A stretch of DNA of 64,000 bases from Candidatus Avelusimicrobium luingense (GTDB taxonomy: Bacteria > Elusimicrobiota > Elusimicrobia > Elusimicrobiales > Elusimicrobiaceae): the NCBI GenBank assembly GCA_900315845.1, contig OOHK01000002.1, positions 186,001-250,000 of the forward strand, read 5' to 3'. The notes under the pieces are model-generated. The model was given only the letters and a program-made list of their open reading frames with translations, ran no database searches and was not told the DNA's origin. This document shows, piece by piece, positions 6,998 through 63,353 of this stretch. The position numbers and the translations under genes are program-made. Numbering within the stretch: position 1 is the stretch's first letter; each line of letters opens with the position of its first letter.

Positions 6998-7543
6998 TTA
7001 AAGTTTGTATATCTTAAGCGTTCCGCCCAATTGTTCGGCAGCCCAACGGTACGTTTCTCCCGTAATTTCCTGTCCGCCCATACTCTTACATACTTGATTG
7101 GCTACCTTATCAGTTGCTAATGCCAAACACCGCGTTTCATTGGGATGAGCGGAATTTTCGGCCCACCGGAGATATCCGTTCTTTGTATTTGTATTTCCCC
7201 CAAAGATATTGGGCGTTCCATAATCCAGTACATCAAATATGACACCATTGGGGCATCTGATTCCATAAGAAGTAGAAGCACCTGAACAATTAGCAGGAGC
7301 CTCTATCACCCAACCCAAATCTTCCCCGGAATCTGCCGGGTATCCACCATTGGATAAATAATAAAGTTCCAATGATTTTTTATAACCGTCCACAATCGGT
7401 ATCAAAGCCGATAAACGGCTTTTGGCTACGGCTACCTGATACTGCGGCAACGCTACCGCCGCCAGTATGCCGATAATAAGCACAACGACTAATAATTCTA
7501 TCAGCGTAAAACCACTCGCAGAGTTCTGCATATGTTTTGTCAT
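6998..7543 (-). CDS. Type IV pilin-like protein, dispersed family member 1
   Basis: The 181-residue protein has a short leader ending in Gly (MTKHMQNSASG) before FTLIELLVVVLIIGILAAVA, the class III signal of type IV pilins and type II pseudopilins; the fifth mature residue is Glu. The ATG at 7543 is chosen because AAGGAGA stands just upstream and because it gives a normal 11-residue leader; the longer frame to 7633 would not. The globular part has YYLSNGGYP and four or more cysteines, including the VCKSMGG motif shared with the other members. No pilus assembly gene is nearby. Whether it is a major pilin, minor pilin or pseudopilin is open. Confidence 0.85.
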   Translation of the reverse strand: MTKHMQNSASGFTLIELLVVVLIIGILAAVALPQYQVAVAKSRLSALIPIVDGYKKSLELYYLSNGGYPADSGEDLGWVIEAPANCSGASTSYGIRCPNGVIFDVLDYGTPNIFGGNTNTKNGYLRWAENSAHPNETRCLALATDKVANQVCKSMGGQEITGETYRWAAEQLGGTLKIYKL

Positions 7544-7643
7544 AAAAGGTCTCCTTTTCAAAAGGGTTGCGTAAATTGAAGAAATTATCACAACAAAACC
7601 CGCGCCAATTTTTTTGTTTCGGGAATCGCCCATCCGGCGAGTA

Positions 7644-12611: not shown

Positions 12612-13178
12612 TTAAGGCAATCTATATACTCTTTCGTGAGGGTAAGAAGTTTTTGCACCGTTAAATATTTTTTGGCAATAACTTCCAGCCGCTTTTGCGA
12701 ACACAGGTTCTTCTATACATAAAATTTCATCTAAAGGGACTTGTTCATCCGTCAAAGAATTTTGCTTGGACCACTGCCATTGAAATGAGCCGCCACGATA
12801 TGGCCCAGTCAGACGTTCCATACGAACAGCTATATTTTTGGCACTATCATTAGAAAATACAATATTCCAATCGGTTCCGGCATAAACATTTTGATAATTT
12901 GAAATCCATACGCGGGTGTTTCCCGTCCATGATGGAATCTTAATATCTACATCCAAATCATCTAAATTGCTTGGCCAATTACCCGAAGATAAGTAATACA
13001 CTTTCCCGGCTTCTCCTACACTTTTAAGTAATGCAAGGGCTTGAACGGCTTTACTTTTTTCCACCGCTTTTTGATATTGTGGCAACGCCACGCTTGCTAA
13101 AATACCAATAATCAAAACCACCACTAATAATTCTATTAATGTAAAACCTTCTAAATGGCTCGGTATTTGTTCTTTCAT
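12612..13178 (-). CDS. Type IV pilin-like protein, dispersed family member 2
   Basis: The 188-residue protein has the leader MKEQIPSHLEG before FTLIELLVVVLIIGILASVA, then the QYQKAVEKSKA helix. The globular part has YYLSSGNWP, the LDVDIKIP motif and a C-terminal YCQKIFNG, matching the pattern LDVDxP...C..x.G of the other copies. AAAGGAG stands before the ATG. It converges with the REC-GGDEF gene with one base between the stop codons. Its own promoter is TGTTATATT at 13218-13226, preceded by TTGACA and an 11-base T run. Confidence 0.86.
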   Translation of the reverse strand: MKEQIPSHLEGFTLIELLVVVLIIGILASVALPQYQKAVEKSKAVQALALLKSVGEAGKVYYLSSGNWPSNLDDLDVDIKIPSWTGNTRVWISNYQNVYAGTDWNIVFSNDSAKNIAVRMERLTGPYRGGSFQWQWSKQNSLTDEQVPLDEILCIEEPVFAKAAGSYCQKIFNGAKTSYPHERVYRLP

Positions 13179-22306: not shown

Positions 22307-22714
22307 CTACATCTTTTCAATCAATTGCTTTAAGACGAGAAAATTAAGCACTAGCGTAATGGGAGTAATGAGTATTTTAGCGGCTATGGCCAAGGCGGCT
22401 TGCGGTAATAATCCGCTTGCCAGCAATACCCCATGAATCCGTACCAGCAACCACGAAACGCTACACACAAGCACTATCTGATACAGTACATACAACACAT
22501 ATTTCACCCATAACGGCAGGGCACTGTGACTTTTGAAAATATAACGCGTGGAAAAAATAAACACAAAGGAAATACCGGCAAACGCCCCGCAGATGTTACA
22601 CCAAAATAACGGTACGGCACAAAACGCCAGCAATGTATAGAGCGCAAAATCTAACAGCCACCCGATACCGCTAACACCTATAAAAATGCCACCTTGCCGT
22701 ACTAATTTATTCAT
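22307..22714 (-). CDS. GtrA-like membrane protein
   Basis: The 135-residue protein has four membrane segments and a GtrA-family start (FIGVSGIGWLLDFALY). Family members are proposed to flip or deliver polyprenyl-linked sugars during LPS or teichoic acid modification. It overlaps the nucleotidyltransferase gene by eight bases and is the last gene of the minus-strand glycan unit. A GT2 enzyme of the unit (26134-26934) would be a natural partner. Confidence 0.8.
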   Translation of the reverse strand: MNKLVRQGGIFIGVSGIGWLLDFALYTLLAFCAVPLFWCNICGAFAGISFVFIFSTRYIFKSHSALPLWVKYVLYVLYQIVLVCSVSWLLVRIHGVLLASGLLPQAALAIAAKILITPITLVLNFLVLKQLIEKM

Positions 22715-23444
22715 GTAGAAATTGCTCCAATTCTTCCGGAGTGCCTAACACGTGTACTTGCGAGGAAGGGATATCGGTAATATAAATTTTCCCGCCTTTT
22801 TGAAGTAAATAATCATACAACGGCGCCACGTATTTTTCCTTTAACGCTTGCGGGCGCGTGTAAAATTGGCGGTAGAGTTCTTCATACAATTTACACGTCT
22901 TAAAATAATAGGCTCCTAATGTACAATGATCGGAAATACGTTCTTTTTCTTTAATTTCCGCCACTTCCCCTTTATCATTTAACCGCACAAAACTCCAATG
23001 CGTTCCCGGGGCTTGGAAACAAGGAATAAAGCCGTCGCCTTTGAGTTGTGCGCTGTTCATCGCACCGGGCTGCACATACGTATCAATGTTATAAATCAGT
23101 AGCGCGTTTTCTGCCTTCCAATAGCGGGCGGCCAACAAGGCAGTAGTGGCTTGACCATCGGTTAATTGATCCAGCACAATAATTTGATAGGAAGAAATAC
23201 CTAACAAAGTACACTTTTCGCGAATAAATTTTTCTACGTCGGTTTGTTCGTCCTTTAAGGCAATAAATGTATAGCGGCAGGCTTGCTCTTTGAAACCGTC
23301 CAAACTGATAAGCGCCCACTCAAAAAGCGTTTTGCCTTTGGCTTCAATCATATATTTGGGTTGACGGTATCCGCACGCCCGAAAGCGCGAGCCGATGCCC
23401 CCCATCGTAATGATGATTTCAAGATTTTTATTTGTCACACACAT
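22707..23444 (-). CDS. Sugar-phosphate nucleotidyltransferase-like protein
   Basis: The 245-residue protein has a nucleotidyltransferase start, IITMGGIGSRFRACGYRQPK, with the glycine-rich loop and the conserved Arg and Lys, and a later YNIDTYV acidic motif that would bind metal. It would activate a phosphorylated sugar or alcohol with NTP to make a glycan precursor. The HAD phosphatase gene overlaps it by 17 bases and the APH-type kinase gene comes before that, so kinase, phosphatase and nucleotidyltransferase form a three-step activation set. The substrate is unknown. Confidence 0.75.
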   Translation of the reverse strand: MCVTNKNLEIIITMGGIGSRFRACGYRQPKYMIEAKGKTLFEWALISLDGFKEQACRYTFIALKDEQTDVEKFIREKCTLLGISSYQIIVLDQLTDGQATTALLAARYWKAENALLIYNIDTYVQPGAMNSAQLKGDGFIPCFQAPGTHWSFVRLNDKGEVAEIKEKERISDHCTLGAYYFKTCKLYEELYRQFYTRPQALKEKYVAPLYDYLLQKGGKIYITDIPSSQVHVLGTPEELEQFLHE

Positions 23445-23838
23445 TCTCCGGCAAGCGGTCTGCGGCGCAAATTTTTTCCAATTGTTCGGGTGAGTTTTCT
23501 AAAAATTCGCGCGGGCGTACGGTACGGTCATCAATATAAAAACCCTTATGGCCGGGCCAAATTTTCCCATATATAATTTCATCATAGGGGATATCCCACT
23601 TTTCTAACCATTTGGTCAAAACAGCGGCCGTATATTTATTGATGAGCCCCAGATTACCGTTATAGGAATTCATATTGCGGGAAGTGTATAAGATAATTTT
23701 GGCGCCGTCCGCATGGCAGGCTTTCAGTTTTTCTACCATAGCGCTATACGGGACTAAATCTTCGTATTTTTGCTCCGGCTTTTTAATGGGGCACAATGTC
23801 CCGTCCACATCTATTACCAGCGAATAGCCCTTATACAT
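23428..23838 (-). CDS. Small HAD-superfamily phosphatase of the glycan locus
   Basis: The 136-residue protein has HAD motif I (VIDVDGTLC), motif II (ILYTSRNMN) and a C-terminal FYIDDRTV. The usual spaced cap domain is missing. Proteins of this type are common in capsule and LPS loci. It overlaps the gene before it by eight bases and the gene after it by 17, indicating tight coupling with the kinase and nucleotidyltransferase. The natural substrate is unknown. Confidence 0.75.
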   Translation of the reverse strand: MYKGYSLVIDVDGTLCPIKKPEQKYEDLVPYSAMVEKLKACHADGAKIILYTSRNMNSYNGNLGLINKYTAAVLTKWLEKWDIPYDEIIYGKIWPGHKGFYIDDRTVRPREFLENSPEQLEKICAADRLPENVCDK

Positions 23839-25282
23839 ATTGTTTAACCTCGTTTAATAGGTTTTGAATATTCAAGATAAACCCGAATACCTTGTACGGA
23901 TTATCCATGTGTAGCGGTAGTAACGATAAAAATAACGAAATTTCATACACACGCACCGCCACATAATCAAACCCGTTTTGTTCTACTTTCTGTTGGAACA
24001 AGGCGCGGTAAGGGGCGTTATCAAACGGGATGTCTAATTCAAACTTTAACTGCTCGCCCAGTTTAATATCAAAAAGGCCGCTATTGAAAAAATCATACCG
24101 TCCGCAAATACAATGACTTAGTTTTGCTAAATCATAATACGGGTTTGTCCACATTTCTTCTTCGGTAAGAGCCCCTTTGGGATCAATAAATTTTAAGGTA
24201 CGGGTTGACTTGTGATACAAGGCATTGGCAAACCCCGGGTCTCCGTGTCCGATCACTTGGCAGTTGGGAGCGCGCAGGTTTTTTTCCATTTGTTTTTTAA
24301 GGTCAAAATAAGCATCTACCAACTCATCCAAACGGACGTGGCCGGCCTCTAAAAATTGTGACAGTTTCGTATAAGCCGGATGCGCTTGTAATTGGATAGT
24401 CCGTTCTTTTACTTTATCCACATACAGGGCATCTGCCGTTTTTTGATACACTTGGGCCGAACACATACGGCGTGAACGCACGCTAAAAAAGTGGAAATAC
24501 ATATCCAAAATCGTTTCAAATTCTTCCGGTTCAATAGAACCATGTACCCATTTAATAGCCAAATCGGTCATATACAACCGTTCCATGGTGTAACTGGCTG
24601 TATCTTTATCTTCGCGATAGTTATACGGAAGAACGAACCAAGGTTTCATCTCGTCGGGCAACAAATGATAAAACGTATATTCTTTTTTCAATTTGTCTTT
24701 ATCGGTAGAAGATTTAGTTAACGTATATTTTGTTTCGGTTAGTGTATTAAAATACCGTGCTTCAAAATTTCCCGTTAGACACGCTACTAACCGCGATACT
24801 TGTGCCAAATTGCTCACTCCTTCTATGGGAAACTCTTGATTAATATAGTTAACCGCATCCGAAGACGTTACTCCCGCCAACCGGTTTTTGCAAAAGGGCA
24901 AATAGGTTTTTACATCGGGAAACATCATACCTACCAGTTGTTTATCCGCGCACATTTTCCACGGAGAATCTATATAATTTAATTTTTGAAACGATAACAA
25001 CGCTTTTTTCTCATCCGTAATAAACCAGTTGGAAAACAGGTGTAATACCCGCACATCTTCGCCGACAAACGGCTTTAACTGTTCTTCCACCGTCTCGTAT
25101 TGCGTCGCCGCATCTATCCGTTTAATAATCGCACCGGGGAAACAGGTTTGCAACAGCCCCAGCACCGTTTCTTCCACGCGGCGGCGCCCGATGACCACTT
25201 CGGCAAAAGTTTTCGTGCCGATAATATCTTGCACCATTTCGTTTTTGACAATATCGTTATCGTAACAAATAATTATTCTCAT
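23831..25282 (-). CDS. Two-domain protein with C-terminal APH-type phosphotransferase
   Basis: The 483-residue protein has a C-terminal kinase-like domain of the aminoglycoside phosphotransferase/choline kinase type: catalytic loop VIGHGDPGFANAL and metal-binding FIDPKGAL. The first 150 or so residues form a separate alpha/beta region starting MRIIICYDND that I do not recognise. Small-molecule kinases of this fold phosphorylate choline, ethanolamine or sugars, which would suit surface-glycan decoration. The ATG at 25282 is chosen over a longer frame to 25330 because the domain starts there; it overlaps the upstream gene by 26 bases. Confidence 0.7.
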   Translation of the reverse strand: MRIIICYDNDIVKNEMVQDIIGTKTFAEVVIGRRRVEETVLGLLQTCFPGAIIKRIDAATQYETVEEQLKPFVGEDVRVLHLFSNWFITDEKKALLSFQKLNYIDSPWKMCADKQLVGMMFPDVKTYLPFCKNRLAGVTSSDAVNYINQEFPIEGVSNLAQVSRLVACLTGNFEARYFNTLTETKYTLTKSSTDKDKLKKEYTFYHLLPDEMKPWFVLPYNYREDKDTASYTMERLYMTDLAIKWVHGSIEPEEFETILDMYFHFFSVRSRRMCSAQVYQKTADALYVDKVKERTIQLQAHPAYTKLSQFLEAGHVRLDELVDAYFDLKKQMEKNLRAPNCQVIGHGDPGFANALYHKSTRTLKFIDPKGALTEEEMWTNPYYDLAKLSHCICGRYDFFNSGLFDIKLGEQLKFELDIPFDNAPYRALFQQKVEQNGFDYVAVRVYEISLFLSLLPLHMDNPYKVFGFILNIQNLLNEVKQYV

Positions 25283-26171
25283 AAATTTTCTCGCGTTTGA
25301 AAAATAATTTCCCGACTTGTAATAAAACATAAGTAATCGCTAATAAGACGATACTCAATGCTACAAATTCTCTAAGCGTAGGGCAGGGCCCGTTGGTAAG
25401 CGCGGCCGATAAATAGGACGTAATTTTAGCCGTTAATTGAGCAAAGGGTACGCTCTTGGAAACAATCCACAGGTTAATCAGTTCCATGCCCCATGCCAGC
25501 ACGGATAAAGCATACAAGATAATTCCCCGGCCTTGTACGACACTTTTAACTTGCCGGTGAATATGCGCCAAAACATCTAAATATTTAAGATAACGCAGTG
25601 TGGACGGTGTGGCCGCTGCGGCCAAGTAATAATTCTTCCAAAAAGTGTAAAAGCCGGGGAAAATAAAATACGCTCCCAGCAAAACGGCCATAACAAATAA
25701 AAACAAACAAACCAATAGCCCCACCGAACTTTTGGCTAATAACCCCAATATCAAAAGCCAAGTAACTAACGCACTTAAATCCATAAAACGGTCTAACAAG
25801 ACGATGATTGTTCCCTTCCAAAAATCTTTGAGTAAAACGCCGTAACAGTACATCCTAAAAAATTCGCCCAACTTATACGGCAACAGCAAACTAACCGGAG
25901 TCACCTTACAGTAAGTTTTGAGATATTCCCACGTATTGACCGGATTGCCGTACATCGCCAAATACAATCGCAGGGCTTTGATGATATGAACCCCCAATAC
26001 GGTAAAAAACAAAGACAATAACCCCACCCTGCAGGACCCAAATAACGGTACCAAAACAGGTTGATAGGTTATCCCGAATACGATAAGCGCGCAAGCGAGT
26101 ACCGCCGTATTGATAAAACAATACCAAAAACGATTATTTTTTCGTCGTGTTACAGATGATATCGGCTTCAT
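25257..26171 (-). CDS. Flippase-like membrane protein (LPG synthase TM/UPF0104 family)
   Basis: The protein has about seven or eight membrane segments and the family motif region TPVSLLLPYKLGEFFRMY followed by LLDRFMDL. Family members include the membrane domain of lysyl-phosphatidylglycerol synthase and proteins in polysaccharide loci thought to flip lipids. The frame extends to a TTG at 26180; the ATG at 26171 is preferred, giving 304 residues. It overlaps the GT2 gene upstream. Confidence 0.68.
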   Translation of the reverse strand: MKPISSVTRRKNNRFWYCFINTAVLACALIVFGITYQPVLVPLFGSCRVGLLSLFFTVLGVHIIKALRLYLAMYGNPVNTWEYLKTYCKVTPVSLLLPYKLGEFFRMYCYGVLLKDFWKGTIIVLLDRFMDLSALVTWLLILGLLAKSSVGLLVCLFLFVMAVLLGAYFIFPGFYTFWKNYYLAAAATPSTLRYLKYLDVLAHIHRQVKSVVQGRGIILYALSVLAWGMELINLWIVSKSVPFAQLTAKITSYLSAALTNGPCPTLREFVALSIVLLAITYVLLQVGKLFFKREKIYENNYLLR

Positions 26172-26934
26172 ACTTGTCAATAATACGAGTGCGGTGTTCC
26201 TGTTGCATGAAAGATTTTTTTCCCACTACATACGAGCATAGCATTTTAAGTACTGTAATGGCTTGGCTAGTTAATTTTACATTAGATACTTGGTCGGTTT
26301 CACGCCAGCAAATCGGGAAAAATTTTACCTTGTGTTTATAATAGGCAGAGCCCAATACCATGGCATAATTAAATAATAAACTATCGGGATATCGGCGGTA
26401 AAATTCATCTTTTAATATCGCCGTCTTATATACATTTAATCCGGATCCCAAATCATACACGTTACTTCCCGTTCCCAAAGAAAACAGCATATCATATACG
26501 CGGTTGCCAAACGTGCGGAACTTGGAATATCCTTGCAGTTTAGAACCTTTCATAAAACGGGCTCCCAAAAAACAATCGTACGCCTGATATTCGCCGGATT
26601 CCAAATACGGCAGCAAATTGGCAATATCTCCTTGATCGTCCCCATGCAACACAATGACATAATCAAACCCGTTTTTGCATGCGTATGCAAAAGCCACTTT
26701 ATGCGATCCGCCCAACCCGTAATTATCTTTATTACGCAGTAGTGTAAGCGGCAGTTGCGGGTGAGACTTGGCAAACTCAATAACGGCTTGTTCTCCGTTA
26801 TCGGTGCTGCGGTTATTAACCACTAAAATTTCTGTAATAAAAGATTGTATTTGCGGTGTAAATTGAGCAAGCACCCGCGTGATTTGTTTTTCACAATTAT
26901 ACATGGGAATAAATACAAGAATTTTAGGGTTCAT
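26134..26934 (-). CDS. Family 2 glycosyltransferase (dolichol-phosphate-mannose-synthase-like)
   Basis: The 266-residue enzyme has VFIPMYNCEKQI, a NNRSTDNG nucleotide-binding loop and the metal motif LHGDDQGD, with the GLGGSHKVAF stretch of the polyprenyl-phosphate glycosyltransferase group. It probably loads a sugar on undecaprenyl phosphate at the inner membrane. It sits directly after the 941-residue membrane protein (adjacent stop and start) and before the flippase-like protein, a sensible order for building and moving a lipid-linked sugar. Confidence 0.82.
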   Translation of the reverse strand: MNPKILVFIPMYNCEKQITRVLAQFTPQIQSFITEILVVNNRSTDNGEQAVIEFAKSHPQLPLTLLRNKDNYGLGGSHKVAFAYACKNGFDYVIVLHGDDQGDIANLLPYLESGEYQAYDCFLGARFMKGSKLQGYSKFRTFGNRVYDMLFSLGTGSNVYDLGSGLNVYKTAILKDEFYRRYPDSLLFNYAMVLGSAYYKHKVKFFPICWRETDQVSNVKLTSQAITVLKMLCSYVVGKKSFMQQEHRTRIIDKYEADIICNTTKK

Positions 26935-29760
26935 TTAATGCACCTCACGAAGTTTAAGAAATTCTATCTTTTTTACAGGCGGCAAGTCTGCCGGTAACGC
27001 ATTGTCCGTCACTCGAATTTGCAAAGAGGAATGGTCATTTAACAGCCAATGCGCCACGGCCCCTAACGGAATAAGTAATTTCCCCTTATCCATCCCGCTA
27101 AATAATTTATGATTTTCTCCGGACTCATCTGTCCAACTTATTTCCACGCGGCGTTGCGGATTGTAATTCTTTTTAACAAAATACTTGGCAAATCCTAAAT
27201 TAGTCGGTAATTTATGCCAACCCGCCATATCATAAAGAGCATATTCAAAAGATTGGTCTTGCCCGTCAAATTCTATATACATAAAATCAGCATCGTCGCC
27301 GTAGAGCGGCTTGGAAAAATGGATTTGCAGACTATTTGATAACACTTTTGTTTCAAATGACACTTGCGGTGTTGAAAATATCGGCCGAAGCGATTTTATG
27401 GATTGCCCCCAAGCCGCAAATGTTTTATTGACAAACAAATCTTTACCATAAGGCAACAAACGGTGTCGTTGCAAAATTTGTTCGGTAGAAACGGAACCGT
27501 CATTAGGACGAAAAACATTTCTGGCTGGGTCATAGACATAGTTTTTACCTGTTATCAAATAATGATTAAGTAATGCCGTGGTCTCTTGTGCAGCGTCAAA
27601 GCCTTTTATTGTCATCGGTTCAAGTACAGATGATCCTTTAATATCTTGCGCATAATAGAGCCCAAATACGGATAAACCGAAATAGGGAAAAGGCAATTTC
27701 GGTTGCAAGGATTCCTGTTTCAAAAAATCTCCAGTAGTTTTTTTAACAAACCCTTGCCCGGCTTTGTTCAATTGTAATGGTTCCAGTTGGACGGTATCTT
27801 CCGATAACGTTATATACGGTTGTAATTTTTTCGTTTCCGTCAATATCCCCCAAGAATAAGAAAAAAATGGCACACATAAAGCCAACCCTATGAGTATCTG
27901 TTTTATCTTTATAGTACGCCCATACTGCAATACATAGACCACAAACATAACCGCCATCGCACTAAATATGCCAATATTCCGGGCAAACAAAGAATTAGTA
28001 TCTAACCGTACCATGGTATAAGAAAAAGCAACAAGCGGCAAAATTACCAGTGACAAAACGATACATCCATCGCGTACCTGCACCCTATTTATTTTTTCAT
28101 ACTTATTCAAGTGAAATACATAAAGAGCAAAAGCAAATCCCCCCCATACCAATACCGCCGGAAATAAGAATGTAAACAAATATCCAACCGACAAACGTAT
28201 GCCCAAAGGGGCAAACAAAACTATTGGAAAAGAAAATTGCTGTCCAAAGCGCGAAATACCGTCGGCCAATACGGTCTGAGCGGCCATCGCACGAATGTGG
28301 TGAAAGGTTCCCTGCAACCAAGGCACCGCTAGCAACACAGGAAGGAAACAAATGCACCACTTAAGTAAAAAACCGTTCTTTTGACTTTCCTTGCGTAATT
28401 GCCCGGAAGTAATAAACGTAATAATTTGATAAATTCCCAAGGGGGCAAAAGCCAAACATACCGCCGCCCCATATACAGGATAATAAAGTCCGTGAAACAA
28501 ACTGGTTAATAACCAAACTTTAAGCCATAGATTTCTGTTTTCTATGAGTTTAGGCCAGGAGAGCAGTAACATAATCGGCAAGATAAATAAACTACGGTTT
28601 ATATATACCGAACTTCCACCGATAAACACAAGAGCGATTAAAAACAGCGAAGTATTTTTTAGGTACAACTTCAACAAGCCAAGTACTAATACAGAAATGA
28701 TCCATAAAAATAAAGTCTCTGTTATATAATAATGCGAAAGAAGCCCCGCTCCCATCCATTCAAAAAAAGCCCCTTGCACAACAGAGTACATCCCTGATAC
28801 GGGAATATAGTGCACAAAGGCTTTTTGACCCATTTGGAACAATTGATGAAACCCGATAATGTTTTCAAAGGGGTGATGTAAATCTACCGGGATTTGTAAT
28901 CCCTTAGAAGAACTCACTAAAAATCCGGCTATTGCCACGTACACCCCAAATGATAAAATTTGATTTAAGGTAGCCGGAGTGTGCCAATATTTTTTCAGAT
29001 TGGCTATCCCCGATATAATTAACCCCGCCATCACCCCATATACAAATAGACGTATGCGCAGCAGCGGCTTAACGGTAACAATTTCCCCATTTAACAAATA
29101 ACGGTCCGCCACATAAACTAAAAGCAGTGCAGGTAAAATAATTTGCATAATTAAGACACTTTTTTGAAAAAGTACAGATTTATAAGAAGGACGTAAGCAT
29201 ATTACACAAATACTTATCAAAGCAACAATTGCAGGGGAATGTTTATTAATCGTATGCGTTCCCCCAAACCATGCATACAACATATACAATGCATATACTG
29301 TAAAAATAGATAGAAAGAAGAAAATCATGTCATCTATAAGATGTTCCTTATCACGCCAAGAAGCAATACATACAAGCAAAAAAAATGAGAAAATATCAAA
29401 TTTGAGTTTACCGACTACAAGTATGGAATAAATCATTATACAACTCACTATCCCCACGATAAACCGCTCCACACTAATAGTTTTACCTGGGGAATCGGTG
29501 AATTTAGCATTATAAGGCCCATACATATAATAACCCATATATACTAGTAAACCGGCCAATGACAAGAAATAAATTAAAAACATCTCCGCAGATTTATTGG
29601 AAAGGACTTGAGATGTCCATTCGACAATGATATCTGTATATACTTGCGGCTGATTGCCTGTAACGGCTAAAAAGATAAGCGTAAACAAAGCGCCGGCTAC
29701 GGTCATGAGCCCTAAAAACCCGGCCGGACGAAGTGATTTGATTTTTTGGGGAAAAGACAT
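26935..29760 (-). CDS. Large polytopic membrane protein, possibly GT-C type glycosyltransferase
   Basis: This 941-residue protein has about 16-20 membrane segments in the first 660 residues and a soluble C-terminal part (about 670-941) with beta-rich, aromatic content. That layout resembles membrane glycosyltransferases that use lipid-linked sugars, but I recognise no specific family or catalytic motif. The ATG at 29760 has GGAG eight bases upstream; a GTG at 29769 is less likely. It is the first gene of the minus-strand glycan unit. The DNA is visibly richer in A and T than its neighbours, which could reflect membrane codons or transfer. Confidence 0.55.
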   Translation of the reverse strand: MSFPQKIKSLRPAGFLGLMTVAGALFTLIFLAVTGNQPQVYTDIIVEWTSQVLSNKSAEMFLIYFLSLAGLLVYMGYYMYGPYNAKFTDSPGKTISVERFIVGIVSCIMIYSILVVGKLKFDIFSFFLLVCIASWRDKEHLIDDMIFFFLSIFTVYALYMLYAWFGGTHTINKHSPAIVALISICVICLRPSYKSVLFQKSVLIMQIILPALLLVYVADRYLLNGEIVTVKPLLRIRLFVYGVMAGLIISGIANLKKYWHTPATLNQILSFGVYVAIAGFLVSSSKGLQIPVDLHHPFENIIGFHQLFQMGQKAFVHYIPVSGMYSVVQGAFFEWMGAGLLSHYYITETLFLWIISVLVLGLLKLYLKNTSLFLIALVFIGGSSVYINRSLFILPIMLLLSWPKLIENRNLWLKVWLLTSLFHGLYYPVYGAAVCLAFAPLGIYQIITFITSGQLRKESQKNGFLLKWCICFLPVLLAVPWLQGTFHHIRAMAAQTVLADGISRFGQQFSFPIVLFAPLGIRLSVGYLFTFLFPAVLVWGGFAFALYVFHLNKYEKINRVQVRDGCIVLSLVILPLVAFSYTMVRLDTNSLFARNIGIFSAMAVMFVVYVLQYGRTIKIKQILIGLALCVPFFSYSWGILTETKKLQPYITLSEDTVQLEPLQLNKAGQGFVKKTTGDFLKQESLQPKLPFPYFGLSVFGLYYAQDIKGSSVLEPMTIKGFDAAQETTALLNHYLITGKNYVYDPARNVFRPNDGSVSTEQILQRHRLLPYGKDLFVNKTFAAWGQSIKSLRPIFSTPQVSFETKVLSNSLQIHFSKPLYGDDADFMYIEFDGQDQSFEYALYDMAGWHKLPTNLGFAKYFVKKNYNPQRRVEISWTDESGENHKLFSGMDKGKLLIPLGAVAHWLLNDHSSLQIRVTDNALPADLPPVKKIEFLKLREVH

Positions 29761-29894
29761 AAAAAACACTCCGATACCGTTTTTGATTATATCATTTTTT
29801 CTCTTCCTTCCGCAAAACGTCTCAGATTTTTCCTGCGAATTACAACCCGGCGCGGCTGCAATATGTTATGATAAGTGATATAAGGAGAATCGCC

Positions 29895-30977
29895 ATGAAA
29901 AATAAAATTTTTGAAGATTTGTTTGTATTAGAACTTGCCAATAACCACTGGGGGCATGTGGAACGCGGGTTAAAAATCATTGAAAACTTTTCACAGATTG
30001 TCCGCTTTAATAACGTCCGCGCGTCCATTAAATTACAATTTCGCGACGTAGATACCTTTATTCACCAAGATTTCAGAGACCGCCAAGATATCCGCTACAT
30101 TAAAAAAACCATGGCGACTAAAATGGATATCAAACAATACCAACTGCTCGTAGATGCTATACGCAAAAGCGGTTGTATCCCCATGGCGACTCCGTTTGAT
30201 GAATATTCGGTAGATACGTGCGTTAAATTGGGCGTAGCGATTATTAAAATTGCCAGTTCCGACTTAAACGACTGGATCTTAATTGAAAAAATTGCCACCA
30301 CCCGCAAACCCGTTATCGTATCCACCGGGGGCAGTTCCCTTAAAAATATTGATGATTTGGTAACCTTCTTTGAGCACCGCGATATTCCGCTGGCCATTAA
30401 CCATTGTGTCAGTGTGTATCCATCGGAAAAAGAAGAATTGGAACTCAACCAAATTGACTTCTTAAAAAACCGCTATCCGGGACACGTCATTGGTTTTTCC
30501 ACCCATGAATATAACGAGCGTTTGGAAGAATCTATCCAAATGGCCTACGCCAAAGGCGCACGCACCTTTGAGCGGCACATTGATATTGATGCGGATAATA
30601 TTCCGGTTTCCCCTTATTGTTCGTTGCCTCAAGATATTGATCGTTGGATAAAAGCCTATCAACGAGCGGTTATTTGTTGCGGTCACAGTCCGGACACCAA
30701 ACACTTGCCCGCCCGCAAAGAAATTACCTATTTAGATGCACTTGTGCGCGGCGTATATGCGCGGTGGGATTTACCCAAAGGGCATAAACTGACCGACGAT
30801 GACGTCTATTTGGCTATTCCATTACAAAAAGGCCAAATTTCCTGTCGGGAACTGATGCGCGGCGAAGTGTTACTGTCCGATATCAAAAAAGACGAACCTA
30901 TTAAAATCGACCAGATTGACAGTCCCTACGCTCATAACGAAAGCCTAAAACGATTGATTGAAGAACGCGGGTTATAA
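29895..30977 (+). CDS. NeuB-like 3-deoxy-2-ulosonate (sialic acid family) synthase
   Basis: The 360-residue protein has an N-terminal NeuB barrel (1-270) and a C-terminal SAF antifreeze-like domain (about 285-345). NeuB enzymes condense PEP with an amino sugar to make nonulosonic acids. The metal histidines are present at H204 (GFSTHE, usually GYSDHT) and H228 (TFERHID), along with ATPFDEYSVD and NHCVSVYPS. The ATG at 29895 has AAGGAGA at the right distance. No NeuC or NeuA homologue is adjacent, so the exact product is open. It is followed at once by the ThDP enzyme. Confidence 0.8.
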   Translation: MKNKIFEDLFVLELANNHWGHVERGLKIIENFSQIVRFNNVRASIKLQFRDVDTFIHQDFRDRQDIRYIKKTMATKMDIKQYQLLVDAIRKSGCIPMATPFDEYSVDTCVKLGVAIIKIASSDLNDWILIEKIATTRKPVIVSTGGSSLKNIDDLVTFFEHRDIPLAINHCVSVYPSEKEELELNQIDFLKNRYPGHVIGFSTHEYNERLEESIQMAYAKGARTFERHIDIDADNIPVSPYCSLPQDIDRWIKAYQRAVICCGHSPDTKHLPARKEITYLDALVRGVYARWDLPKGHKLTDDDVYLAIPLQKGQISCRELMRGEVLLSDIKKDEPIKIDQIDSPYAHNESLKRLIEERGL

Positions 30978-30978
30978 T

Positions 30979-32748
30979 ATGAAATTATCCGATTATTTAG
31001 TTAAAAAACTAGAGCAATACGGTGTGCGCCGTACCTTTATGATAACAGGCGGCGGAGCCATGCACTTAAATGATAGTTTCGGACAAAGTAAAAAAATTCA
31101 TTTGCTTTTTAATCATCATGAACAAGCCGCCGCTATTGCGGCCGAAGGGTACGCACGCGCCACGGGGAAATTGGCCGTTGTATGCGTAACGACCGGCCCG
31201 GGCGGGCTTAACTGCTTAAACGGAGTGTTTGGCGCGTGGACGGACAGCGCCCCCATTTTATTTATTTCGGGCCAAGTAAAAACTTCCACCACGTTAGCCT
31301 CTTGTCCGCAACTTCCGTTGCGCCAACTGGGTGACCAAGAAACCGATATTATCAGCGTGGTCACTCCGCTCACCAAATTTGCACGTACCGTTACCGATCC
31401 GCAAGATATTGATGCCGTGTTGGATGAAGCCATTTTTCACGCCACGACCGGACGCCCCGGCCCGGTATGGGTAGATATTCCTATCAATGTGCAAGCCGCA
31501 CAAATTAACGAAAAGAAATTAAAAAAATTTCGCACGCCCGCAAAGAAAAAGCAAGTGTCAATACTCCCTTGCAAGAAGGCCGCCACTTGGCTGACAAACG
31601 CCAAAAAGCCGCTTGTGGTCGTCGGGCATGGGGTGCGGTTAAGCGGCGCGCAAAAATTATTAGATACATTTTTGCGGCAAACCAAAATTCCCGCAGTAAC
31701 TACATTTAACGGATTTGATTTAGTGGCGGACGATTGCCCGAACTTCGCCGGACGTATTGGCACGGTCGGGCAGCGTGCGGGGAATTTTACGTTGCAAAAT
31801 GCAGACGTCATTTTGTTTTTGGGTACGCGCAACAACATTCGGCAAGTAAGTTATAATTGGGAAAATTTTGCCAAAAACGCCCAGAAAATCGTCGTAGATA
31901 TTGATCCGGCCGAATTACAAAAACCCACCGTCAAACCCGATTTACCGATTTGTGCCGATGTTAAAAATGTACTGGAAATTTTGATCCGTATGCTTAAAAA
32001 ACCGCTCGGCACAGACGCGTGGAGAAAGCATTGCCAAAAGTTACGGCATGAATTTTTACCGTTGCAAGAATTTACCTTCCGCCCCACGGACAAAATACAC
32101 CCGTATTTATTTATAGACGAACTCAGCCGCCAAACGCCGCCCGACACCTTGTTGGTCGCTTCCAACGGCACGGCTTGCGTAGCGTTGTTTCAAGCGGTCA
32201 AACTGAAAAAAGGCCAACGGGCATTTTTGAATTCCGGTTGTGCGTCCATGGGCTATGGCTTGCCTGCCGCTCTCGGGGCGTGCGCAGCCACCAATAAACC
32301 CGTCGTCTGTTTGGAAGGGGATGGCAGTATTATGATGAATTTGCAAGAATTGCAAACGGTTAAAACAAATAAATTACCGCTTAAAATTTTTGTGCTAAAA
32401 AACGGCGTCTATAAATCTATTATTCAAACGCAAACTAATTTTTTCAAAGGCCGTTTGACCGGGTGTAATGCCCAAAGCGGCGTAGAAGTACCCGATTTCG
32501 TGCAGGTTGCTAAAGCCTTCGGCTTACCGGCCGTACGTTTGCAAAAAAACCGAGATTTGAAAAAAGGCATTGCGCGCGTATTGGCTGCCAAAGGCCCTAT
32601 CGTGTGCGAAGTGGATTGCACCGAAGATTATATTTTCTCGCCCAAATTATCGGCGCGTAAATTACCCGACGGCACGATGATTAGCCCGACGTTGGAAGAC
32701 ATGTTTCCGTTCTTACCGCGCGAAACGTTTGAAAAAGCAAAGATGTAA
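30979..32748 (+). CDS. Acetolactate-synthase-like ThDP-dependent enzyme
   Basis: The 589-residue protein has the three-domain ThDP fold: the catalytic Glu48 in HHEQAAAIAAEGYARATG, a central domain (about 190-330) and a ThDP-binding motif EGDGSIMMN near residue 447. Biosynthetic acetolactate synthase is one member, but here there is no regulatory subunit or branched-chain gene nearby. ThDP enzymes of this type are also known in sugar branching (YerE adds an acetyl group from pyruvate to a deoxy-keto sugar). It begins one base after the NeuB-like stop, so both probably make one unusual glycan precursor. Confidence 0.78.
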   Translation: MKLSDYLVKKLEQYGVRRTFMITGGGAMHLNDSFGQSKKIHLLFNHHEQAAAIAAEGYARATGKLAVVCVTTGPGGLNCLNGVFGAWTDSAPILFISGQVKTSTTLASCPQLPLRQLGDQETDIISVVTPLTKFARTVTDPQDIDAVLDEAIFHATTGRPGPVWVDIPINVQAAQINEKKLKKFRTPAKKKQVSILPCKKAATWLTNAKKPLVVVGHGVRLSGAQKLLDTFLRQTKIPAVTTFNGFDLVADDCPNFAGRIGTVGQRAGNFTLQNADVILFLGTRNNIRQVSYNWENFAKNAQKIVVDIDPAELQKPTVKPDLPICADVKNVLEILIRMLKKPLGTDAWRKHCQKLRHEFLPLQEFTFRPTDKIHPYLFIDELSRQTPPDTLLVASNGTACVALFQAVKLKKGQRAFLNSGCASMGYGLPAALGACAATNKPVVCLEGDGSIMMNLQELQTVKTNKLPLKIFVLKNGVYKSIIQTQTNFFKGRLTGCNAQSGVEVPDFVQVAKAFGLPAVRLQKNRDLKKGIARVLAAKGPIVCEVDCTEDYIFSPKLSARKLPDGTMISPTLEDMFPFLPRETFEKAKM

Positions 32749-32768: not shown

Positions 32769-33236
32769 ATGAAAAGCAATAAAGCATTTACACTTATTGA
32801 ATTATTAGTGGTCGTGCTCATCATCGGCATACTTGCCGGAGTTGCGTTGCCGCAATATCAAAAAGCAGTAACAAAAACCCGTTATGCCACCTTAATGCAT
32901 TTGACGGAAAGTATTTACGAGGCCGAACAAGTTTATCATATGGCTAACGGAACTTATGGCGATTTTGACGTATTGGATGTAGATATCCCCCACAATTCTT
33001 CCAGCGCGCCTACCAGACGTCAGATTAACGGAGATGTTTTCTGCACAATAGAACTATCTACGCAGTATATTTATTGTCATAACAGCAAGTATCATTTATC
33101 GTACTTGCGTCTGTTTTACAACACGAACCGCTACTGCATCCCGTATAATAACAATGCGATGGCTACCAAAATTTGCAAGCAGGAAACAAACGGTGCTACC
33201 GCCGATGCAAGTACCGGCTGGTATCTTTATCCTTAA
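32769..33236 (+). CDS. Type IV pilin-like protein, dispersed family member 3
   Basis: The 155-residue protein has a very short leader, MKSNKA, before FTLIELLVVVLIIGILAGVA; the residue before the cleavage site is Ala, not Gly. It carries VYHMANGTYG, the LDVDIPH motif and a C-terminal ICKQETNG, and is rich in Tyr. It starts 20 bases after the ThDP gene, on the same strand, with AAAGG in the gap, so unlike most copies it may be expressed from a longer operon. A hairpin follows. Confidence 0.84.
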   Translation: MKSNKAFTLIELLVVVLIIGILAGVALPQYQKAVTKTRYATLMHLTESIYEAEQVYHMANGTYGDFDVLDVDIPHNSSSAPTRRQINGDVFCTIELSTQYIYCHNSKYHLSYLRLFYNTNRYCIPYNNNAMATKICKQETNGATADASTGWYLYP

Positions 33237-37415: not shown

Positions 37416-37982
37416 TTATTCAAACCAATCGTAATCATACAACGCACGGACAAATTGTTTTCCCATCACCTTGCTGCAAAATCTTCCGCGCGTAGTATCC
37501 GGTATAGACACGGCATTGCCTGTATATTCCACACAATACAATGTATTGCCGTCAAACGCCCCGCTTGTATCTTTGATATAGGCAACCCCTGTACATGGAT
37601 ATTTCCCTTCCGTGAACACACCAAATACATCATTCCATCTGTTGGGGCTTTTTCCGATAACAATGGCATATCCTTTGCCTTCTTTTTTAGTAATTCCCGA
37701 ACCAATGGCTAGCGCGCATGCCGTACCGGTTTTATCTTGCAACGGCAAATCTACATCCAACACTTCAAAATTGTCCGGCCATTCTCCGTTGGCCATTTCA
37801 TAACTATGAGCCGCCGTAGCCACCGCCGATACTGCTGTGTATAATTGTGCCGCACGTGATTTTGCTACCGCTTTTTGATATTGCGGCAAGGCCACTCCTG
37901 CCAAAATGCCGATAATTAGCACAACAACTAATAATTCTATCAGCGTAAAACCACTTAAACATCCCCTTAAATTATTCTTCAT
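37416..37982 (-). CDS. Type IV pilin-like protein, dispersed family member 4
   Basis: The 188-residue protein has the leader MKNNLRGCLSG before FTLIELLVVVLIIGILAGVA and QYQKAVAKSRAAQ. It shows YEMANGEWPDNFEVLDVDLP and a C-terminal FCSKVMGK, the same motif order as its relatives. GGAGA precedes the ATG. It starts 17 bases after the nadE stop, so it is probably carried on the nadE transcript and not driven by its own promoter. The product may be exported to the inner membrane and processed by a prepilin peptidase encoded elsewhere. Confidence 0.85.
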   Translation of the reverse strand: MKNNLRGCLSGFTLIELLVVVLIIGILAGVALPQYQKAVAKSRAAQLYTAVSAVATAAHSYEMANGEWPDNFEVLDVDLPLQDKTGTACALAIGSGITKKEGKGYAIVIGKSPNRWNDVFGVFTEGKYPCTGVAYIKDTSGAFDGNTLYCVEYTGNAVSIPDTTRGRFCSKVMGKQFVRALYDYDWFE

Positions 37983-41171: not shown

Positions 41172-42463
41172 TTACACTTTTAGTTATTTTGTTAATGTTG
41201 GGATTAAATGCGCTGTTGGCCGCGTATGAAATGGCCCTTGCGTCCATTTCGCGCACGCGTTTGTCGCTACTTGTACAAAGCAAATGCCCGGGGGCAGAAG
41301 CCGCCTTGTACATGAAAGACCATTTGGAAGGCAGTTTGGCAGTTGTTCAAATCGGAATTACGCTTGTGGGGGCGGTGGCGGCGGCGTTTGGCGGCTCCGA
41401 CGCGGGAAGCCGGTTTGCCCCGTGGCTTCGCGAGCACTTATATCTTTCCCGCCATGTAGCCAATGCGTTAGCGATGATTATGGTCGTTTTGCCGCTTAGT
41501 TTTATTACCATTGTTTTTGCCGAACTTACCCCCAAAACGTTTGCTATAAAAAACAAAGAACTTGTTGTATTGCGACTTTCTCCGTCGTTGCGTGTATTGT
41601 ATGCGATACTCGCACCGATTGTTAACATTATGGAATCTATTGTACGCACGATCACCCGCAAATTTTCCCGCACACCCGATCAAAAAGAACTCCAACGCAC
41701 CGCGTTGGAAGATTTACGCACCGCAGCGGCGATTGCGTCTTCGTCACGTTTATTCGGCAAGACGGAAGAAAAAATCGTGCTTACAAGTGCCCAATTTTGT
41801 TTGCGTAAAATTCGCGAAATTCAAGTGCCGCTGGAACAAGTCTATATGCTCAATGCCGACGATTCTATCGCCGATACCTTCATTAAAGCACATTTGGATA
41901 TGCATACGCGTTTCCCCGTGCGCGGCAACCCCGAGGATTCGCAGGATATTATCGGATATTTGAACTTTAAGGACATTTTCCTTTCCACCAAAGTGGCTCA
42001 AGGCGGCCCGACCACTGCACGCAATATCGTCCGTCCGATTTTACGTTTGGAAGCCGATACCATTATCTCTGCCGCGCTTGAGAAAATGATGAAAAGCAAA
42101 CAACATATTTGTTTGGTGACAGACGATAAGATGATTACCGGCATTTTGACGCTGGAAGATATTTTTGAAGAAATGGTAGGCGAAATTGAAGATGAGTACG
42201 ACTTTTTCCCTGCCTATATCCGCCCGTTCGGGCAAGCACTGGCCGCCAGCGCCCCCGCCAAAATGGTAGATATCTTTGAACGGCTTGATTTGCCCGTTCC
42301 CGCCGACGTTACCCCCACCACCACCGTAGAGCAATGGGTCAGCCAGAAACTCGGGCACGAACCGACTAAAAACGAGAAGATTCACCAAAACGGTATTTTG
42401 TTGGAAACCCGCAAATTCCGCCGGCATAAAATGATGGAAGTGCTTATTAGCAAAGCGAATTAA
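41168..42463 (+). CDS. CNNM/CorC-family (DUF21-CBS) transporter
   Basis: The 431-residue protein has a DUF21 membrane domain (about 1-160, four segments with an early MLGLNALLAAYEMAL motif), two CBS domains (about 210-340) and a C-terminal CorC_HlyC domain. Relatives act in Mg2+ or Co2+ efflux or resistance. The ATG at 41168 overlaps the stop of the glycosyltransferase gene (ATGA). The gene end overlaps the converging pilin 5 by four bases. Confidence 0.86.
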   Translation: MITLLVILLMLGLNALLAAYEMALASISRTRLSLLVQSKCPGAEAALYMKDHLEGSLAVVQIGITLVGAVAAAFGGSDAGSRFAPWLREHLYLSRHVANALAMIMVVLPLSFITIVFAELTPKTFAIKNKELVVLRLSPSLRVLYAILAPIVNIMESIVRTITRKFSRTPDQKELQRTALEDLRTAAAIASSSRLFGKTEEKIVLTSAQFCLRKIREIQVPLEQVYMLNADDSIADTFIKAHLDMHTRFPVRGNPEDSQDIIGYLNFKDIFLSTKVAQGGPTTARNIVRPILRLEADTIISAALEKMMKSKQHICLVTDDKMITGILTLEDIFEEMVGEIEDEYDFFPAYIRPFGQALAASAPAKMVDIFERLDLPVPADVTPTTTVEQWVSQKLGHEPTKNEKIHQNGILLETRKFRRHKMMEVLISKAN

Positions 42464-43062
42464 GGCACTAGATAATAATTCCCCAAGTCACCGCTCTGTA
42501 CTGTTTGCGTGGCTTTGAAAATTTGTCTGCAATACTTCAAACTTTTGGCCGAATCTACCGTCACCCCACCGGCTCCTGCACTTTTTACAACACAAGTCAT
42601 TGTGTGGGCACAAACGCCAAGACCATTTGCGGGTGGCGGGCAAGCCCAATCGCCAAAATAATAAGCAAACCCGGATCCCGCGTAGGGCCCGGTCAAACGC
42701 CCCGCAAAAACCGCATGGACGGTGTCCGGATATAATTGAATAGACCAATCATTATTGGAACGGGTATCTGTTAAATATGACGCTGTAGACCATTTTGTCG
42801 TACCCGTAAATGGAATTTCTACGGCTAAATCATCAAAGGAATTAGCATAGACGCCGTTAGCCAAATAATAATTTTCCTGTGCTTCGCCAATGGCTCTTAA
42901 TAATGGCCATACCGCCGCCGCACGCGATTTTTCCACTGCTTTTTGATACTGCGGTAACGCTACCGATGCTAAAATACCAATGATAAGAACGACCACCAAT
43001 AATTCAATTAACGTAAATGCTTTGATATCCAAACAGCCCGTAAAATAACTTTTATTTTTCAT
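42460..43062 (-). CDS. Type IV pilin-like protein, dispersed family member 5
   Basis: The 200-residue protein starts MKNKSYFTGCLDIKA and is cut before FTLIELLVVVLIIGILASVA, with Ala before the cleavage site. It has YYLANGVYANSFDDLAVEIP and a C-terminal YCRQIFKA, and extra cysteines in the middle (WACPPP, VCAHTMTC). The ATG at 43062 has AAAGGAG; the frame to 43107 adds a stretch upstream of it. Its own promoter, TTTTTGC then TAATTT, lies at 43098-43106. It converges with the CBS transporter gene. Confidence 0.85.
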   Translation of the reverse strand: MKNKSYFTGCLDIKAFTLIELLVVVLIIGILASVALPQYQKAVEKSRAAAVWPLLRAIGEAQENYYLANGVYANSFDDLAVEIPFTGTTKWSTASYLTDTRSNNDWSIQLYPDTVHAVFAGRLTGPYAGSGFAYYFGDWACPPPANGLGVCAHTMTCVVKSAGAGGVTVDSAKSLKYCRQIFKATQTVQSGDLGNYYLVP

Positions 43063-43097
43063 GTTCACTCCTTTCTTAGAAAATTTTCTCATACAAA

Positions 43098-43106
43098 AAA
43101 TTAGCA
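43098..43106 (-). promoter_or_regulatory. Promoter of pilin 5
   Basis: The minus strand reads TTTTTGC followed by TAATTT, the same T-tract plus TGC layout as pilins 6 and 7. The leader is about 28 bases with AAAGGAG. Confidence 0.45.
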
Positions 43107-43158
43107 AAAAGGCAAACCTAAAAGGGTTTCCTTGTAAATAACCGATATGAAAATAATT

Positions 43159-46307: not shown

Positions 46308-46805
46308 TCATAACGAGATTGTATAACCGGAGCAACTCTTACCACCAAGCAGACTACAGGAGGAAGTGTAATTCTTTGCCGGGCCGAATGTAGCACAAAT
46401 CCGCTTGCTAATATTATCTTCGGTGGCCCAACAAGAACCCTGTCCGCCTGCATAAGGTATTTGTAATTGTACATACGACGTAGCAGCCAAAAACTGATCG
46501 GCTGCTAACCAGATATGCTGTCCGTTACTAAGCACAATACTGCTTCCGTTCACTTGACTTCCCGCCGGATAAGTAACAGCCAATACTTCCGGATCTTGGG
46601 TGTAAGTATTATTTGCCAAATAATATGCTTGCTCGGCACTTTGCAAAGAATGCAATAGTGAGAACAAATTCATGGTGCGCGTTTTTTCCACCGCTACTCG
46701 ATATTTGGGTAACGCCACTGCCGCCAAAATACCGATAATAAGCACAACCACTAACAATTCAATAAGTGTAAAACCACCTAAACGACCCAACATTGTGTTT
46801 TTCAT
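46308..46805 (-). CDS. Type IV pilin-like protein, dispersed family member 6
   Basis: The 165-residue protein has the leader MKNTMLGRLGG before FTLIELLVVVLIIGILAAVA, then KYRVAVEKTRT. Its globular part has YYLANNTYTQDPEVLAVTYP and a RICATFGP motif, with a cysteine-rich tail (SSCSLLGGKSC). TAGGA is placed well before the ATG. Its promoter is TTTTTTTGC then TAAATT at 46845-46853. Confidence 0.85.
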   Translation of the reverse strand: MKNTMLGRLGGFTLIELLVVVLIIGILAAVALPKYRVAVEKTRTMNLFSLLHSLQSAEQAYYLANNTYTQDPEVLAVTYPAGSQVNGSSIVLSNGQHIWLAADQFLAATSYVQLQIPYAGGQGSCWATEDNISKRICATFGPAKNYTSSCSLLGGKSCSGYTISL

Positions 46806-62843: not shown

Positions 62844-63353
62844 TTATAACTTAATCTTATATTCGTCGCAATTGATGGACTGTCCGACCTCAATAGCACC
62901 GCAAGTAGTATGCCGGGTAAATGTTCCGATTCCTTTACAAACCGAAATGGTAACCGGATCCGTCGGGTCAGCCAAACAATAAGGCCCCGGCTCGTGGTCG
63001 GTTTGATGATCCAACCACCACTCCAATTGCGTCCGACGGGCCGCTCCCCCCAGATACCGGCCGCGCAAGACAAAGCGCGCCCCGTTAGGTAAGGTATAAT
63101 AACTTTGCGAAGTCACCGATCCGCCAGCCGGAAAATCTACATCCAATTCCTCAACATCGGTAGTATAACTGCCGTTGGTTAAATAGTAGGCTTCCTCGGC
63201 ATCCGCGAGTGATTTAGCAACGGGCAACAACGTCATAAAACGGCTCTTTTCAACGGCCTTGTTATATTGCGGCAGAGCCACCGCCGCCAAAATACCGATA
63301 ATCAGTACAACTACTAATAATTCTATCAGTGTAAATGCTTGGTTATTTTTCAT
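62844..63353 (-). CDS. Type IV pilin-like protein, dispersed family member 7
   Basis: The 169-residue protein has the short leader MKNNQA before FTLIELLVVVLIIGILAAVA, again with Ala before the cleavage site. It has YYLTNGSYTTDVEELDVDFP and a C-terminal SVCKGIGT, plus three further cysteines. GGGAGAAG lies before the ATG. The promoter is TTTTTTGC then TACACT at 63383-63391; TTGACA occurs upstream. A terminator separates it from the next gene on each side, so it is a one-gene unit. Confidence 0.86.
   Translation of the reverse strand: MKNNQAFTLIELLVVVLIIGILAAVALPQYNKAVEKSRFMTLLPVAKSLADAEEAYYLTNGSYTTDVEELDVDFPAGGSVTSQSYYTLPNGARFVLRGRYLGGAARRTQLEWWLDHQTDHEPGPYCLADPTDPVTISVCKGIGTFTRHTTCGAIEVGQSINCDEYKIKL

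Follow-up and report, generated by a model that had tools for sequence, protein, structure and literature searches.

A NeuB-family synthase encoded beside a YerE-like thiamine diphosphate enzyme in an Elusimicrobiota genome: a candidate relay for C4-branched sugars

What do a NeuB-family synthase and an acetolactate-synthase-like enzyme make when their genes lie side by side? The question is raised by positions 22307-32748 of a 64,000 nucleotide stretch of DNA from the gut bacterium Candidatus Avelusimicrobium luingense (contig OOHK01000002.1; G000:C7:186001-250000), which is called the window here. The host genome comprises 1.46 Mb in 8 contigs and is 94.5% complete. An earlier note on the window had proposed that a NeuB-like enzyme and a thiamine diphosphate (ThDP) enzyme, together with neighboring glycan genes, produce a branched or elongated acidic sugar. 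From sequence comparisons we consider it likely that the two enzymes form a relay, in which the NeuB-family enzyme would make an alpha-keto-acid donor and the ThDP enzyme would attach it to C4 of a cytidine diphosphate (CDP)-4-keto-3,6-dideoxyhexose. The features of the pair are as follows.

29895-30977, plus strand: NeuB-family synthase, 360 aa; NeuB TIM barrel plus SAF domain; proposed alpha-keto-acid donor synthase
30979-32748, plus strand: YerE/JanthE-like ThDP carboligase, 589 aa; proposed to decarboxylate the donor and transfer it to a 4-keto sugar
29882-29887, plus strand: Shine-Dalgarno-like AAGGAG, 7 nt ahead of the start codon at 29895, read directly from the sequence

The NeuB-family gene probably starts at the ATG at 29895, not at 29868, because AAGGAG precedes the former and the resulting length agrees with that of 360-aa orthologues. 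The ThDP enzyme probably starts at the ATG at 30979. With these starts the NeuB stop at 30977 and the ThDP start are separated by 1 base, as the earlier note had reported, and both genes are intact. Its observation as a whole was confirmed.

The NeuB-family protein matched the Pfam NeuB family (E 8.8e-37) and has a SAF domain. A search of 295 genomes of the phylum identified 17 close homologues including that of the window. E14, N17, K47, K119, S203, H205, E227 and H229 (numbering of A1) are invariant in the 17 relatives, and the barrel and SAF domain with the metal His pair and the phosphoenolpyruvate (PEP) residues place the protein in the NeuB superfamily. Its nearest solved relative is 3g8r (231 bits), a ‘probable spore coat polysaccharide biosynthesis protein E’ whose record carries no assigned function and which resembles a second, cupin-bearing clade as much as the window clade. 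This second NeuB clade (~40% identity) has a C-terminal cupin fusion and is likewise encoded close to a ThDP enzyme and to ddh genes, in L049, L051, L052, L080, L081 and L082. Meningococcal NeuB/SiaC has the fold, SAF domain, PEP residues and metal residues in common with the window enzyme but matched it at only 80 bits and differs at Arg314. This SAF-domain arginine, which contacts the N-acetyl group of N-acetylmannosamine (ManNAc), is replaced by Ile in the window enzyme and by a hydrophobic residue (I/V/M/L) in 17/17 relatives.

Conservation of the fold, the SAF domain and the PEP and metal residues would suit a synthase of an ordinary nonulosonic acid (of the sialic, pseudaminic or legionaminic type) whose gene shares no more than a surface-glycan operon with the ThDP gene. 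However, the enzyme scored 115 bits against a cut-off of 399.65 bits for the N-acetylneuraminate synthase model, and 111 bits against 340 bits for the PseI model. NeuA was not found genome-wide; the sole CMP-sugar synthetase family match above cut-off was KdsB-like, and its gene adjoins a heptose kinase-like gene. Together with the hydrophobic replacement of the ManNAc-contacting arginine and the specific pairing with one ThDP subfamily across many phyla described below, this makes an ordinary nonulosonic acid very unlikely. Judged from its sequence, the window enzyme is not a sialic acid synthase, because NeuA was not found and a hydrophobic residue takes the place of that arginine. The sialic acid route, for which the earlier note had seen no NeuA and no support, was rejected. 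A plasmid search with the window NeuB produced no match.

All three TPP_enzyme Pfam domains (N, M and C) matched the ThDP enzyme at E 1e-35 or better, and the HEQ and GDG...KN motifs (catalytic Glu and ThDP binding) are present in it and in its relatives. The best PDB match was 8rph (376 bits), followed by plant acetolactate synthase (ALS, 256 bits) and 5ahk (250 bits). We take 5ahk to be PpYerE. 8rph is JanthE (PMC12188165), the nearest solved relative, which accepts long donors including 4-hydroxy-2-oxovalerate; its motif is CDG where the window enzyme has GDG. By analogy, a ketone acceptor and a tertiary-alcohol product are predicted for the window enzyme.

The top NCBIfam model was TIGR00118, which would speak for a plain ALS. 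The 375-bit score is under the cut-off of 538 bits, and the enzyme is also below the cut-off of every other ALS model shown. Neither the acetolactate small subunit (TIGR00119; search positive in 13/14 control genomes) nor ilvC (TIGR00465) was found in the 94.5% complete host genome. The JanthE score is far above that of any ALS, and relatives of the enzyme sit within dideoxy-sugar clusters. A plain ALS is thus extremely improbable. Because it falls below every ALS cut-off, is closest to JanthE and resides in a genome without ilvC and the small subunit, the window enzyme is, by sequence criteria, not an ALS. The valine route was rejected since both genes are missing, which extends to the whole genome the earlier note's view that the regulatory subunit was absent and this route unsupported.

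Does the pair recur elsewhere? A scan of bacterial genomes with the window NeuB generated at least 80 loci with about 65-90% identity in many phyla. The taxa and counts in this paragraph are among the matches listed. Represented are Gastranaerophilales, Rhodocyclaceae, Accumulibacter, Microcystis, Acidobacteria, Planctomycetes, Verrucomicrobia, Geobacteraceae, Acidocella, Caballeronia and candidate phyla. A ThDP partner was located no more than 10 kb from NeuB in 70/80 loci, and 43 loci have no gene between the two. Loci with full context (at least 9 kb on both sides) had a ThDP partner in 34/36 cases versus 2/20 in the control, which consisted of 20 other NeuB-family loci of the same phylum (p = 1.5e-10). 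The pairing is far beyond chance. The earlier note had suggested seeking the same pair in other genomes and had regarded the two enzymes as a functional unit; recurrence of the pair over many phyla bears this out. Recurrent neighbors, named by sequence reading rather than family search, were a haloacid dehalogenase (HAD) phosphatase (21 loci), a dolichol-phosphate-mannose-synthase-like family 2 glycosyltransferase (GT2; 42 loci), an FkbM-type methyltransferase (29 loci) and other methyltransferases (28 loci).

Relatives within the genus indicate the setting of the pair. Here it follows ddhA-ddhB-ddhC and an epimerase gene in CDP-3,6-dideoxyhexose clusters, and DdhA, DdhB and DdhC of these relatives are above the NCBIfam equivalog cut-offs. 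The linkage to ddh genes typical of YerE-like enzymes is thus found directly upstream in relatives, and on another contig in the host genome. Some genus clusters have extra short-chain dehydrogenase/reductase (SDR), dehydroquinate synthase (DHQS)-like and FGGY kinase-like genes ahead of NeuB. The position between the epimerase gene and the ThDP gene, termed the slot, has more than one occupant. The same ThDP type is present in genus genomes without this NeuB, where the slot encodes a 271-273-aa HpcH/HpaI aldolase family protein with invariant metal-ligand Glu and Asp motifs. When this HpcH-like protein was compared with the PDB as a single sequence, nothing matched, and a search for it in the host genome, run without a positive control, was also negative. 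Among 25 genus loci with readable context, the slot held NeuB in 11, the HpcH/HpaI-like aldolase in 13, a HAD protein only in 1, and both enzymes in none. Next to two more distant ThDP homologues of the genus, the slot is occupied either by 4-hydroxy-2-oxovalerate aldolase together with acetylating acetaldehyde dehydrogenase, both scoring above cut-off, or by an HMGL-like enzyme. The slot families are expected to make 4-hydroxy-2-oxo acids, or to be related to enzymes that do, like NeuB.

Slot enzymes have been exchanged repeatedly: mapping the HpcH label onto the ThDP tree requires 7 changes, of which well-supported branches force at least 5. One genome has two ThDP copies that are 97.6% identical, one beside NeuB and the other beside HpcH. 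In a further two genomes the ThDP enzymes are 92% identical, with NeuB in one and HpcH in the other. Elsewhere, a cluster in G079 (L077 8036-15782) encodes 4-hydroxy-2-oxovalerate aldolase, acetaldehyde dehydrogenase, DdhABC and a YerE-like enzyme, and looks like an erwiniose-type pathway.

Two other loci of the host genome carry related genes. Contig 8 has ddhA-ddhB-ddhC-epimerase followed by a second ThDP enzyme (L054/L053; L053 7537-13343), and its ddhC is the only one in the genome. The second ThDP enzyme is nearest to 5ahk, not to JanthE, and has no donor synthase alongside, as would suit a yersiniose-type enzyme that takes pyruvate; the cluster is probably a second branched-sugar cluster of that kind. 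Contig 2 encodes orthologues (58-75% identity) of the SDR, DHQS and FGGY proteins. DHQS382-type genes are present in 5/61 genus genomes, each of which belongs to the 11 with NeuB (p = 8e-5), and the FGGY kinase is found in 18/20 NeuB clusters versus 0/4 HpcH clusters. The sequences themselves show the pair with its family assignments and conservation, the neighborhoods, the swapping of slot genes and the distribution of the pathway across three loci.

Substrates, reaction order and product we infer as follows. The NeuB-family enzyme would condense PEP with a short, non-N-acetylated aldose to a 3-deoxy-2-ulosonic acid, and hence to a 4-hydroxy-2-oxo acid. Its ThDP neighbor would decarboxylate this acid and add the acyl anion to C4 of CDP-4-keto-3,6-dideoxyhexose, supplied by DdhA, DdhB and DdhC from the other contig. 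Reduction of the new ketone by a reductase/epimerase would follow, after which the branched CDP-sugar would be built into a surface glycan. The sugar formed would be a 3,6-dideoxyhexose whose tertiary C4 bears a hydroxylated chain, similar to caryophyllose or erwiniose. The proposal draws on the YerE-like enzymes ErwE and MMAR_2332, which prefer 4-hydroxy-2-oxo acids over pyruvate (PMC12247030), on the acceptance of 4-hydroxy-2-oxovalerate by JanthE (PMC12188165), and on caryophyllose, which has a hydroxylated C6 chain on C4 (PMC7821131). A C7 3-deoxy-2-ulosonic acid that lost CO2 and was added to C4 would give exactly this chain.

The reverse order, in line with the earlier note, would have the ThDP enzyme extend a keto sugar by a pyruvate-derived two-carbon unit before NeuB joins PEP to the branched sugar, yielding a branched ulosonic acid. 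Both enzymes are there and adjacent, and YerE itself takes pyruvate (PMC12247030). Against this order, the window enzyme is closer to JanthE, with its long donors, than to 5ahk, the NeuB slot swaps with pyruvate aldolases, and KdsB is the only CMP-transferase for an ulosonic acid found in the genome. Moreover, NeuB requires a free aldehyde, as is known for the family, and a CDP-sugar has none. We regard the reverse order as decidedly unlikely. Pyruvate as the ThDP donor was not supported, since longer keto acids serve the enzyme's nearest relatives and the slot encodes enzymes making them. An elongated, branched sugar was retained from the note; its acidic character was not, because ThDP decarboxylation would remove the carboxylate introduced by NeuB, so that the product need not be acidic. 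Taken as a whole, that interpretation was partly supported.

Several points weigh against the relay. The pair is detached in its own genome from ddhABC, which adjoins the second YerE-type enzyme; that the pair draws on the same CDP-sugar in trans is therefore assumed. The HpcH assignment is based on a partial Pfam match (E 4e-10) and a weak PDB-profile match (E 4e-4) to 4-hydroxy-2-oxoheptanedioate aldolase. NeuB and HpcH are not strictly interchangeable, because a Gastranaerophilales cluster (L093 5723-8745) has both, and the swap statistics include related genomes. The scheme also assigns no firm role to the kinase and DHQS-like enzymes found in the wider pathway.

Since ddhABC lies apart from the pair in the host genome, we also considered that the NeuB-family enzyme supplies the donor as in the relay while the ThDP acceptor is another keto sugar or keto compound. 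The window pair stands alone, contig 8 has its own ThDP enzyme beside ddhABC, and roughly half of the 80 NeuB loci from the wider scan (among the matches listed) show no ddh gene in the available stretch. In the nearest relatives, however, the pair directly follows ddhABC and the epimerase, and ddhABC is encoded in the host genome; a different acceptor is unlikely. A place for the kinase and the contig 2 DHQS-like enzyme is offered by a further, rather doubtful step after carboligation, in which a terminal phosphate placed by the kinase would be eliminated and the chain would close on the new ketone, giving a polyhydroxylated carbocycle on C4. Such a step would explain why the FGGY kinase accompanies NeuB but not HpcH clusters, as an aldolase could take an already phosphorylated aldehyde.

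Are the glycan genes next to the pair part of the same pathway? Seven genes occupy the minus strand.

22307-22714, minus strand: GtrA, open reading frame (ORF)
22707-23444, minus strand: nucleotidyltransferase-like, ORF
23428-23838, minus strand: EcbF/BcbF-like HAD, ORF
23831-25330, minus strand: kinase-like, no Pfam family at E 0.01
25257-26180, minus strand: membrane protein, no Pfam family at E 0.01
26134-26934, minus strand: GT2, ORF
26935-29769, minus strand: 944-aa membrane protein, no Pfam family at E 0.01

These genes (22307-29769) do not face the pair, as had been thought, but are divergent from it, back to back. All seven are real ORFs; the kinase and the two membrane proteins are named from motifs or general appearance, because they have no Pfam match at E 0.01. 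Structure predictions for the kinase-like protein and the 944-aa membrane protein (predicted local distance difference test scores of 37 and 41) were not used. GtrA, GT2 and the 944-aa membrane protein look like a system for polyprenyl-phosphate sugar transfer, accompanied by the kinase/HAD/nucleotidyltransferase set. Most proteins of the latter set (window 22707-25330) match no Pfam family, and a diverged copy of it is found in G059 (L079 9120-11869). Homologues of the kinase-like gene occur in 3/61 genus genomes. Since the G059 copy, with kinase-like, HAD and nucleotidyltransferase genes, lacks NeuB and ThDP genes, and relatives of the pair lack the minus-strand set, the minus-strand operon is, from gene content, probably a module separate from the pair. 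A single locus spanning 22307-32748 was rejected, and with it membership of these genes in one pathway. Use of the branched sugar by the operon is possible but not supported.

Prepilin genes of the GspG/PilE type are scattered through the window (6998-7633, 12612-13178, 32769-33236, 37416-37982, 42460-43107, 46308-46805 and 62844-63353). Their N-termini are near-identical and their C-termini divergent. The copy at 32769-33236 lies directly after the ThDP gene, and other prepilin genes are close to the relatives' clusters.

How does the pair compare with known systems? YerE of the Yersinia pseudotuberculosis yersiniose A pathway is likewise a ThDP carboligase that acts after DdhABC, on CDP-4-keto-3,6-dideoxyglucose (PMC12247030), but it uses pyruvate and needs no donor synthase, and the window enzyme was nearer to JanthE than to 5ahk in the PDB search. 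ErwE (erwiniose) and MMAR_2332 (caryophyllose), compared here by description, are YerE-like and use 4-hydroxy-2-oxo acid donors to form C4-branched higher sugars; the accounts consulted name no NeuB-family donor synthase (PMC12247030). A published link between NeuB and YerE was not found in the open-access literature, and most YerE-like clusters have no known product according to a review (PMC12247030). The pair is a variant of known YerE-type branching pathways, and its new part is the proposed donor-synthase role for a NeuB subfamily.

If the relay is correct, the NeuB family would gain a role beyond nonulosonic acids, the supply of donors to a ThDP carboligase, and a source of the long alpha-keto acids of ErwE/MMAR_2332-type enzymes would be explained. 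Genomes could be searched for the pair as a sign of C4-branched higher-carbon sugars in Elusimicrobiota, Gastranaerophilales, Acidobacteria, Planctomycetes, Accumulibacter and others; to our knowledge, none have been described in most of those phyla. The slot enzyme would then predict the branch in YerE-like clusters.

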